Origin: Alcanivorax sp. 24
GTDB taxonomy: Bacteria > Pseudomonadota > Gammaproteobacteria > Pseudomonadales > Alcanivoracaceae
Direction of reading: 5' to 3'
Assembly: GCF_004360225.1 (NCBI RefSeq)
Contig: NZ_SNUA01000008.1
Coordinates: forward strand, 124,001-188,000
DNA length: 64,000 nt
The position numbers were made by a program, and so were the translations under genes. The notes beneath the pieces are model-generated. The model did not search any database and had not been told where the DNA came from. It was given only the letters and a program-made list of their open reading frames with translations. Below, one piece after another: positions 25,155 through 43,660 of this stretch; position 1 is the stretch's first letter, and every line of letters starts with the position of its first letter.

Positions 25155-25517
25155 GTGACGACGAACGCCTATATGATGGGATGGCTGGCTTACGTATTGG
25201 GAAGTCTGGGAGTGCTGGTGGTGCTGTGGTATCTGACCAGACCTCTGATGTCCTGGCTGAAAACCCTGCTGCGGGGGTTGGCGACCGCCGTGCTGCTGAC
25301 ACCGTGGCCGGTGGCGGCCAATCAGGAAGAATGGGCGCCGGCCTGGGTGGTCAGTCTGTTCGACGGCCTGTTCGCCGGCAACGACAGCGGGCCCTGGCGG
25401 GCGGTGGCGCCGTTGGTGGCGGTACTGCTGGTGGCGTTTATCGTTGCCTTGCTGGAGTCCTGGCGCCAGCGCCGTAAAGCGGTGGCCGGGGCCGATGAGG
25501 ATTATGACGACGACTGA
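25155..25517 (+). CDS. Small inner-membrane protein
   Basis: A 120-residue protein with two or three membrane helices (about residues 7-26, 35-52 and 82-101) and a strongly acidic C-terminal tail (GADEDYDDD). The GTG start is preceded by AGGGAG. It overlaps the HIT gene start by 14 bp, implying coupled translation. I do not recognise the family. Confidence 0.7.
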   Translation: MTTNAYMMGWLAYVLGSLGVLVVLWYLTRPLMSWLKTLLRGLATAVLLTPWPVAANQEEWAPAWVVSLFDGLFAGNDSGPWRAVAPLVAVLLVAFIVALLESWRQRRKAVAGADEDYDDD

Positions 25518-25959
25518 CTGTGTTTTCTGCCGGATCCTGAACGGGGATGCCCCCGCCAGTGTGGTGTACCGGGACGAGCGGGCGGTGGTGCTGCTGGATT
25601 TGTTTCCGGTACGCGAAGCCCACTGTCTGGTGATTCCGGTGGCCCATCATGCGCTGCTGGAAGAGCTGGAGCCGGATCTGGCGGCCCATCTTTTTGAACT
25701 GGCGAGACGCACCATTCGCGCCCAGAAGCGGGCGGGGCTGGATGTCAAAGCCCATAACGTGGTGGTCAACGACGGCCGCGAGGCCAATCAGCATGTGCCC
25801 CATGTCCACCTTCATGTGATCCCCCGCCGCGGCGGCGACACCCTGGCCACGGCGCTGACCTGGGGGACCCGCATGATGAACGTGTTCGGGCTGTCCAAAC
25901 GCCGCCACCGCCTGGATCGGCTTGCCGGGCTGCTGGCTGAGCATTTCCCGAAGAATTGA
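25504..25959 (+). CDS. HIT family protein
   Basis: A 151-residue histidine-triad protein: CVFCRILNGDAPASVVYRDE opens the fold and HVPHVHLHVIPRR holds the H-x-H-x-H nucleotide-binding motif. Two cysteines at the N terminus (CVFC) are the partial zinc site seen in many bacterial members. It hydrolyses nucleoside phosphoramidates or related dinucleotides. Start at ATG 25504, with GAGG just upstream. Its stop codon lies two bases before a heptamer array. Confidence 0.9.
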   Translation: MTTTDCVFCRILNGDAPASVVYRDERAVVLLDLFPVREAHCLVIPVAHHALLEELEPDLAAHLFELARRTIRAQKRAGLDVKAHNVVVNDGREANQHVPHVHLHVIPRRGGDTLATALTWGTRMMNVFGLSKRRHRLDRLAGLLAEHFPKN

Positions 25960-25961
25960 AC

Positions 25962-26024
25962 GCCGGGCGCCGGGCGCCAGACGCCAGACGCCAGACGCCA
26001 GACGCCAGACGCCAGACGCCAGAC
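25962..26024. repeat. Tandem heptamer array (2x GCCGGGC, 7x GCCAGAC)
   Basis: Nine uninterrupted 7-bp units starting two bases after the HIT stop codon. Confidence 0.95.
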
Positions 26025-26061
26025 GCTAAAGTCAAAACCCTGGGCTGCGGGCATTGCGGGA

Positions 26062-26209
26062 ATAAAAAATTGCCGGGAGCAATTTTTAACGTTGCCCGGC
26101 GACGGCCCGCAGGGTGATCGCCATGGACGGCGGTCATAAAAAATTGCCGGGAGCAATTTTTAACGTTGCTGTGCGACGGCCCGCAGGGTGACCGCCATGG
26201 ACGGCGGTC
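26062..26209. repeat. Two 74-bp tandem copies with double hairpins
   Basis: Copies 26062-26135 and 26136-26209 differ at about four positions, and the first bases of a third copy follow. Each holds a stem AAAATTGC/GCAATTTT with T run and a second palindrome GACCGCC/GGCGGTC (GATCGCC in copy one). Confidence 0.88.
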
Positions 26210-26216
26210 ATAAAAA

Positions 26217-26625
26217 AGGTTCATCGCGGTTTAGCGAGAAGGGTCGCTCCGGCGGGGGCTCCCGTATTACCCGGTTACCTCGAAGACCTCCCTTCAGAGG
26301 GGGCTACAGCGCCGCTGTGGGAAGCTTGCTGGCAAGCGAATCGCCAACGGCTCAGGGCATTCACGGCCAAGCGGAGCGCGCCGCCCGGGCCGCTTCCCAC
26401 AGCGGCTTCGTGGCAGATCCGCGGGAGACCAGCTTGCTGGCGAGTTCCGGCCCTCTGGTGTTGGGATATTCGCTTGCCAGCAAGCTTCCCACAGCGGCTT
26501 CGTGGCATGATCCGTGGGAGACCGGCTTGCCGGCGAATGGCGAATAGAGCGGCTTGGTAGCCCCTTCCGTTACAGACCCGTGCCCATGATTGAAGCGCCG
26601 TGGCCCGCTAAACCGCGATGAACCT
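26217..26625. repeat. 20-bp perfect inverted repeat enclosing REP arms
   Basis: AGGTTCATCGCGGTTTAGCG at 26217-26236 recurs as its exact reverse complement at 26606-26625. It encloses four REP arms (26313-26537). This looks like an inner insertion nested in the heptamer-bounded element. Confidence 0.85.
26313..26537. repeat. Cluster of four REP arms
   Basis: Arms with inner stems GCTTGC TG GCAAGC, the expanded GCGGAGCGCGCCGCCC type, a GAGACC variant and GCTTGCC/GGCAAGC are interleaved. The segment GCGGCTTCGTGGCA between arms occurs twice. Confidence 0.75.
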
Positions 26626-26676
26626 GAAAAAGGCGTTTTAGTGCTTGCCAGGGCATTGGGTCTGGTTTTGCATTAT

Positions 26677-26802
26677 CGGCGTCCGGCGTCCGGCGTCCGG
26701 CGTCCGGCGTCCGGCGTCCGGCGTCCGGCGTCCGGCGTCCGGCGTCCGGCGTCCGGCGTCCGGCGTCCGGCGTCCGGCGTCCGGCGTCCGGCGTCCGGCG
26801 TC
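26677..26802. repeat. Tandem heptamer array, 18 copies of CGGCGTC
   Basis: Eighteen identical 7-bp units, ending one base before the TAG of the minus-strand methyltransferase gene. The array can be read through as an apparent Arg-Pro-Ala-Ser-Gly-Val ORF, which is an artefact. Confidence 0.95.
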
Positions 26803-26803
26803 C

Positions 26804-27547
26804 CTAATATTCCCTGGGCCGGCGGCAGGCGCGGACTCTTAGCGGCCAGCGAACCTTGCGTGTCTTTTCCCCCCACGCCTGCTCCAACTGCGGCAGGAAA
26901 TCCTGCAACGGGTCCTTGCCGAAGCGGCGTGCTTTCGCCAGAGCCGACCAGGTGTCCAGATAGGCGGCCAGATCACGCCAGTGCCAATGACGTTCGATGC
27001 CGAGGTTTTCCGGTACTTTGTGCTCCGGCCAGGGCAGCGTCACATTGCGATAACCACTGACCACGCTCCAGCGTGCCGCCGGCCACCAGGGCGCCAGCAC
27101 CCGGTCGTGGAAGTCGTCGATCAGATCCGGCAGCCCTTCCACCTGACACAAGCCATAGCTGATGATGGCCAGCAGCGCGTCCTCGCGCAGCACCCGTTCC
27201 GCTTCCTTGAAGAACATCGGCAATGGAAACCAGTGCAGTGCCTGGGCCACGGTGATCAGGTCGAAGCTGCCATCGGCGAAGGGCAGGGCGTCGGCACGGG
27301 CGGCCAGATAACGGCTGGCACTGGCCGGGGCGCCTTGTAGTTGGGCGAGGCTCAGGTCGGCGCCGATGACCTGTTGGAAATGGCTTTCCAGGGAGCGGCA
27401 CGCTTGGCCGGTGCCACAGCCCAGGTCCAGCGCCCATTGGTGCTCGAAACATTGATCGCCGAGCCAGCGGAATAAATTTTCCGGGTAGTCCGGCCGGTAC
27501 AGATGGTATTGCCCGCCCCGTTGAAACAGCGACGGACGGTCAGACAT
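26804..27547 (-). CDS. Class I SAM-dependent methyltransferase
   Basis: A 247-residue methyltransferase with motif I ALDLGCGTGQACRSL, motif II around ADLSLAQL, and ADALPFADGSFDLITVAQALHWF as motifs III/IV, the pattern of methyltransferase-11 proteins such as the yeast Tmt1/Crg1-like group. The substrate is unknown. The start at 27547 overlaps the PilZ stop by 8 bp; the stop is one base from the heptamer array. Confidence 0.85.
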   Translation of the reverse strand: MSDRPSLFQRGGQYHLYRPDYPENLFRWLGDQCFEHQWALDLGCGTGQACRSLESHFQQVIGADLSLAQLQGAPASASRYLAARADALPFADGSFDLITVAQALHWFPLPMFFKEAERVLREDALLAIISYGLCQVEGLPDLIDDFHDRVLAPWWPAARWSVVSGYRNVTLPWPEHKVPENLGIERHWHWRDLAAYLDTWSALAKARRFGKDPLQDFLPQLEQAWGEKTRKVRWPLRVRACRRPREY

Positions 27548-39614: not shown

Positions 39615-39870
39615 GCCGGACGCCGGACGCCGGACGCCGGACGCCGGACGCCAGACGCCAGACGCCAGACGCTAAAGTCAAAACCCGGGGCTGTGGGCGT
39701 TGCGGAAGTAAATAAGTATTTTAGTTCTTGCCAGGGTGTTGGGGCTGGTTTTGCATTATCAGCGTCCAGCGTCCAGCGTCCAGCGTCCAGCGTCCAGCGT
39801 CCAGCGTCCAGCGTCCAGCGTCCAGCGTCCAGCGTCCAGCGTCCAGCGTCCAGCGTCCAGCGTCCAGCGT
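39615..39870. mobile_element. Compact element bounded by inverted heptamer arrays
   Basis: Left array: eight 7-bp units, five GCCGGAC then three GCCAGAC (39615-39670). Right array: fifteen CAGCGTC units (39760-39864) plus a partial unit reaching the SDR stop codon at 39870. The 89-bp centre starts GCTAAAGTCAAAACC, ends CTGGTTTTGCATTAT, and matches the inner flanks of the 26 kb element on both sides, without its roughly 610-bp insert. It therefore represents the uninterrupted form. The 153 bp to its left (39462-39614) hold no feature I can support beyond the upstream region of the solute-binding gene. Confidence 0.75.
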
Positions 39871-43457: not shown

Positions 43458-43660
43458 TGCACGCTGACACGCAACACGCAACACGCAACACGCAACACGC
43501 AACACGCAACACGCAACACGCAACACGCAACACGCAACACGCTTGCTCGCTGCTGTGCCAGGGACTCGCTTCTGTTGTGACTCCCCAGATAAGCAAGCCT
43601 TTCCGGCTGACCTCGGGGCCGGCAAGCATGGCGTGCAAGCGTGTTGCGTGTCAGCGTGCA
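43458..43660. mobile_element. MITE-like element B with ten ACGCAAC heptamers
   Basis: Perfect 22-bp inverted ends (43458-43479 and 43639-43660). The left end runs into ten tandem copies of ACGCAAC (43469-43538). The interior shares CTTCTGTTGTGACT, a CTGACCTCGGG-like block and GGCAAGC.TGGCGTGC with element A at 10.95 kb. No coding capacity. It lies between mtaD-type and gyrA genes. Confidence 0.75.

Follow-up and report, generated by a model that had tools for sequence, protein, structure and literature searches.

Heptamer-armed palindromic elements of an Alcanivorax genome that are built like fold-back transposons

Fold-back transposons such as Tetris and Tm1 are eukaryotic elements, found in animals and plants. 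The accounts cited here describe them as having long inverted arms, with outer tandem repeats of variable number and inner domains around a variable middle, and as mostly non-autonomous (PMC4079207, PMC3169594). The tandem unit is ~14 bp or ~220 bp in the two families, and a target-site duplication of 8-10 bp is described (PMC4079207, PMC3169594). In bacteria, arrays of 7-bp units have been reported from several groups. The Xanthomonas heptamer is GGGANTN, with five conserved and two variable positions, and two genomes contain 70 and 75 pairs of it in convergent, inverted arrangement; the arrays of Xanthomonas and Nostoc are intergenic, lie downstream of genes and vary greatly in length (PMC4692102). 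In Beggiatoaceae, the single favoured word TAACTGA is found at many intergenic loci (PMC4679880). The favouring of one 7-bp word by some genomes is unexplained, a matter raised for Xanthomonas, Nostoc and Beggiatoaceae alike (PMC4692102, PMC4679880). Two other classes of bacterial repeats are relevant. The CGTC-tagged palindromes of the REP, BIME and REPIN kind are extragenic, downstream of genes and often flanked by converging genes (PMC3733652), and MITEs such as Correia/NEMIS and RUP are short, non-coding inverted-repeat elements in many copies (PMC2229807).

This study was concerned with a window of 64,000 nucleotides from the marine bacterium Alcanivorax sp. 24, in which two loci share one plan of array, inner flank, centre, inner flank and inverted array (Table 1). 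A preliminary description of the window had reported both loci, and both are present where it placed them. Its size for the compact centre (about 89 bp) is close to the 90 bp of the core of element 2, but the core of element 1 is 653 bp, so that the additional insert is ~560 bp and not 610 bp. All four arrays of the two elements were listed by Tandem Repeats Finder. Against dinucleotide shuffles, element 2 folds far more stably as RNA, with z -10.2 on one strand and -12.9 on the other (reached by 0 of 200 shuffles each), and the + strand of element 1 gave z -10.2 (0 of 20 shuffles).

Table 1. Features of the two heptamer-armed elements and of the ACACGCA element, in window positions.
Feature	Position	Strand	Basis
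Element 1 left array, 9 heptamers: 2 GCCGGGC, then 7 GCCAGAC	25962..26024	+	sequence, Tandem Repeats Finder
Element 1 left inner domain GCTAAAGTCAAAACC	26025..26039	+	
Element 1, 74-bp unit x2 within A-rich core loop	26062..26217	+	
Element 1 inverted-repeat module GGTTCATCGCGG...CCGCGATGAACC	26218..26624	+	
Element 1 right inner domain CTTGCCAGGG (26644-26653)...GGTTTTGCATTATC (26664-26677)	26644..26677	+	
Element 1 right array, GGCGTCC x 18, inverted relative to left array	26678..26803	+	
Element 2 left array, 8 heptamers: 5 GCCGGAC, then 3 GCCAGAC	39615..39670	+	
Element 2 compact core, 90 bp	39671..39760	+	
Element 2 right array, AGCGTCC, 15 full units and 1 partial	39761..39870	+	
ACACGCA element, an inverted-repeat element whose 24-bp terminal repeats lie from 43460 onward and at 43635-43658; left arm expanded by (ACACGCA)n array (43467-43542)	43460..43658	.	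repeat read by eye

The two loci belong to a family. The own genome is a 4.76-Mb draft of 99 contigs, in which a 94-nt core query gave 42 matches, some pairs of which come from the two ends of a single element. By a script count, the fetched loci contain 37 elements or ends of elements, all of the same plan (GACGCNN array, inner flank, core, inner flank, inverted array). The element ends are GACGCTAAAGTCAAAACC and GGTTTTGCATTATC. A strict search retained 26 two-ended copies, with cores of 87-1306 bp, 2-17 left units and 1-18 right units, and in some further elements the left inner domain is of a second type, GACGCTTTAGAACACC. GACGCNN x4 matches this genome 430 times, overlapping matches within arrays counted, and its reversed control 0 times. 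The variable arrays proposed in the preliminary description are borne out, since right arrays range from 1 to 22.6 units across own-genome copies. Array lengths near 127 bp are not reliable in this draft assembly, and we suspect that they reflect an assembly k-mer limit. Contigs C5 and C30 start, and C26 stops, inside right arrays after 126-130 bp, and Tandem Repeats Finder gives the right array of element 1 as 127 bp (26677-26803), which may therefore really be longer. The right array of L015 was assembled at 22.6 units.

We read these elements, with a probability of roughly 0.6, as non-autonomous mobile fold-back palindromes with slippage-grown heptamer arms that favour existing palindromes at gene ends. 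Copies would arise by a transposition-like or recombination-like step, and this insertion step would favour gene ends where a GACGC/GCGTC palindrome was already present. Through 7-bp slippage, a step that we infer from one genome per species, the arms would then lengthen and shorten. The middle would grow by insertions in the A-rich loop, namely the 74-bp unit, the inverted-repeat module and REPs.

The elements can be compared with described systems. As in Tetris and Tm1, the 26 two-ended copies have inverted arms, tandem repeats of variable copy number and a variable middle. Unlike those families, the elements are bacterial, the unit is 7 bp and no target-site duplication was seen. As in MITEs, the copies are numerous, non-coding (judged by repeat content) and inverted at their termini, and their sites are empty in relatives; iterated heptamer arms are not mentioned in the MITE account cited, which lists Correia/NEMIS, ERIC and RUP with target duplications, in contrast to the heptamer-core elements (PMC2229807). 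As in the Xanthomonas arrays, there is a 7-bp period with conserved and variable positions, and the arrays are intergenic and form convergent pairs. In contrast, the word of Xanthomonas and Nostoc is a G-rich quadruplex, and the text cited neither reports a shared core or inner domains nor proposes mobility (PMC4692102). The Beggiatoaceae repeats differ in being direct copies, mostly upstream of start codons, with one indirect repeat only (PMC4679880). The CGTC tag of REP-type palindromes resembles the GCGTC of the arms, but those palindromes have a stem of 8-9 bp, a loop of 4-5 bp and an unpaired tag (PMC3733652), whereas GCGTC here is iterated in long arms and paired in the folds, so that identity with CGTC-tagged REPs was rejected. 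The preliminary description knew of no bacterial element with heptamer arrays as termini, and we likewise found no description of a bacterial element of this fold-back, heptamer-arm kind in the open-licence literature searched; the Xanthomonas arrays and the eukaryotic fold-back transposons are the precedents.

The evidence for recent spread comes from sister species. Three sisters, G006, G007 and G008 (Alloalcanivorax xenomutans JC109), are ~92% identical to and collinear with most of window 25.4-40.9 kb and are without both window elements. The site of element 2 holds a short hairpin of 27-31 bp in all three, and the site of element 1 in G006 and G007 holds a different inverted-repeat element with ACACGC words. 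The comparison was extended to the 26 two-ended elements, leaving out three without a right flank and one (L026) with sister matches of 72-74% identity. Neither G006 nor G008 has the core at any of the 22 sites compared, and core-like flanks were found at none of 46 sister loci (22 sites in G006, 22 in G008 and two loci in G007). Recent spread of the core-bearing form is thus well supported, and the proposal of one element family stands. The proposal that the long and compact loci are its occupied and unoccupied forms does not stand as worded: the compact copy has likewise been inserted, or has replaced sequence, relative to the 27-31 bp of the sisters, the long copies are composites that contain this core too, and the real unoccupied state is that of the sister sites. 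At some of these sites the sisters carry a heptamer palindrome without a core, and at most of the rest their sequence is unrelated. Inspection by eye of the 22 sites against the sisters gave no consistent target-site duplication, and several junctions substitute for sister sequence rather than add to it. Lacking a consistent duplication, the elements are described here as built like a fold-back transposon and are not filed as members of that class. The fold-back architecture would be brought into bacteria by this reading. Because the heptamer word here makes up the arms of an element that can be identified and has spread recently, and because sisters offer sites free of the core and, in some cases, core-less precursors, one can trace insertion, the growth of the arms and the constraint on bases site by site in environmental bacteria.

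The core-less palindromes indicate that the arms are older than the core at some sites. For example, the L006 site is a core-less heptamer palindrome in G006, G007 and G008, whereas nine other congeners differ (150-311 bp fetched). The L001 site is such a palindrome in G006 and G008, while G007 has a left-arm-like stretch followed by ACACGC words; G005, G009 and G010 are without the heptamer palindrome, and the search returned no ortholog for the remaining six congeners. With one 240-kb block each of G006 and G008 as the source of control intervals, the heptamer motif was found at 6 of 22 G006 sites versus 11 of 173 other intergenic intervals (p 0.006) and at 4 of 22 G008 sites versus 6 of 170 (p 0.017), and the motif on both strands had a weak excess (1 of 22 versus 0 of 173 in G006, p 0.11; 2 of 22 versus 1 of 170 in G008, p 0.035), all of these p values being optimistic because the motif was picked after some sites had been viewed. 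In the sisters, the majority of element sites are without a heptamer motif.

The arms themselves are unevenly variable. In the relative A. mobilis MT13131 (G001), 122 inner units of GACGC-seeded arrays are off consensus at 0-2.5% per position in the pentamer and at 34-42% in the last two positions. Collapsing equal neighbours (69 units) gave 0-4% and 42-44%, and a walk outward from the core that did not require GACGC (17 left arms, 50 units) gave 0-8% versus 30-40%. The contrast is less clean in the own genome (23 arms, 50 units), with 0-12% in the pentamer and 20% and 50% at the two variable positions. The near-fixed pentamer suggests that the arm may be an iterated binding or pairing site and not a freely drifting satellite. 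A neutral explanation would be hypermutation, in which the variable positions are the CpG of CCGG, changed by methylation and deamination, and the five fixed bases would then imply no function. The common variants CCA, CTG and CTA fit CCGG deamination on one or both strands. Nevertheless, deamination does not yield the variants CCT and CTT, and the observed/expected ratio of CCGG is 1.09-1.18 in five sampled sequences (four genomes and the window), so that deamination is unsupported genome-wide; it is retained as an unlikely explanation. Copying from arm to arm was also considered and rejected, since in 16 elements the two arms of an element resemble each other no more closely than they resemble arms of other elements (the observed value was reached in 281 of 500 shuffles).

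In 344 kb of the own genome, every one of the 10 perfect period-7 arrays that reach 3.5 copies is built of an ACGC word, as is the case for 4 of 5 in 40 kb of G001; the single array in 240 kb of G008 is not, and 240 kb of G006 contained none. GACGCNN x4 was found in 14 of 57 related genomes, own included, and is rich in the own genome (G000), G001, G012 and G046, the last from another genus. Within the class, 4 of 369 genomes, the own genome among them, have GACGCNN x5, with 1-3 matches in the other three. One exact pattern matched 0 viral contigs, a viral scan with a window protein gave no relative, and there was no plasmid match for element 2 or phage match for element 1 in searches from which own-genome records were possibly excluded. 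Another genus of the family (G017) gave 17 + 4 matches to the reversed GACGCNN x4 control, which hints at a different heptamer word. In A. mobilis, contig29 (L170) has three copies of the A. mobilis element head-to-tail at 1530-1950, with a 121-bp period.

Arms and core need not be one element, because the same arms enclose unrelated centres in G007, G012, G044 and G046 and some arrays have no inverted partner. These observations, together with the core-less palindromes of the sisters, favour a modular explanation in which the heptamer arrays have arisen by expansion of simple sequence at the base of terminators and REP-like hairpins behind genes, the core is a separate MITE favouring such hairpins, and there is no single heptamer-ended element. 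However, short copies (e.g. L002, the first of L022, and L024) are flanked by heptamers although their sister sites are without heptamers, which suggests that the arms travel with the core, and plain slippage fails to explain why the same few ACGC words are found at many loci. We regard the modular explanation as rather unlikely, at perhaps one chance in a few. A separate arrangement was seen in G046, where five loci (L066, L067, L176 and L177) have one-sided (GACGCCT)n arrays running into one strong terminator-like hairpin, GACGCAAAAAGGCCCGCCCGG...CCTTTTTGCGTC.

Many long cores contain one or two 74-bp units and a REP-filled inverted-repeat module, and the modules are joined by repeated A-rich stretches near ATAAAAA. 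In 344 kb of the own genome, all 3 complete inverted-repeat modules are inside cores, and the 74-bp unit is inside cores in 5 of 8 and 2 of 2 cases; REPs are inside in 14 of 25 and 2 of 6 cases. Matches resembling the 74-bp unit are also many in the sister species. The REP palindromes within the element 1 module are of the type that flanks a RAYT-like gene elsewhere in the own genome. At this locus (L151, G000:C12:1383-4703), REPs lie on both sides of the gene, and on one of these sides nine REP pairs follow at regular spacing. The Y1_Tnp gene is a 151-aa ORF containing PDHVHWV, which we take to be the HUH motif. Such a gene flanked by REPs of the long-core kind would allow the whole structure to have been spread by RAYT, as other REP clusters are. 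This is very unlikely for three reasons. First, in the 3.2-3.3 kb examined around each of 12 Y1_Tnp loci from six genomes (22 are listed), there is neither heptamer array nor core flank. Secondly, the compact cores are without such REPs. Third, REPs are found outside cores too (11 of 25 and 4 of 6 cases). Thus, a RAYT gene flanked by copies was found for the inner REPs and not for the heptamer-core elements. No transposase for the core was identified, Y1_Tnp loci being those sought.

The palindromes favoured by the proposed insertion step would lie at gene ends, and the elements themselves usually sit immediately behind stop codons. A HIT-domain gene and a methyltransferase gene converge on element 1 from either side, and element 2 lies behind an SDR gene, with its right array stopping at the SDR stop codon (minus strand). 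A simple gene finder of our own assigned both neighbours to 23 of the 26 two-ended elements (10 convergent, 10 tandem and 3 divergent). Convergent context is more frequent at elements (10 of 23) than among intervals of a G006 block (23 of 160; p 0.002). The distance from array edge to stop codon has a median, taken by hand, of 8 bp for 15 left gene ends and 2 bp for 15 right gene ends, with outliers of 207 and 358 bp. Transcribed, the elements would form long hairpins at 3' ends, which the cell probably tolerates or uses as terminators. A promoter and terminator scan of 25500-27300 gave 3 terminator-like sites versus 1.6 in shuffles and 0 promoters, which leaves a role as simple terminators unsupported.

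ACACGCA is a second word and builds another inverted-repeat family. The element of this word in Table 1 lies upstream of a gyrA-like gene, and its site is occupied by 89 bp of other sequence in G006 and G007, which have the same flanks, and by 205 bp of other, REP-like sequence in G008. ACACGCA x3 was found in 8 of 57 related genomes. A broader bacterial fold-back class might be imagined, which the GACGCNN and ACACGCA families would represent in two genera. In this class, a putative factor would read ACGC at 7-bp spacing, fixing the word while two bases drift, and would seed palindromes behind stop codons, which larger middles would then enter or replace. We consider this generalization speculative and improbable as it stands. 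Rfam at its gathering threshold identified SRP RNA alone in the window (small, RF00169; 12500-12596). Near position 126550 of G000:C1 (L108-L121 block), a period-8 array of the same ACGC word, ACGCTGGC x 6.2, adjoins a stretch like the right end of the 43.46-kb element.
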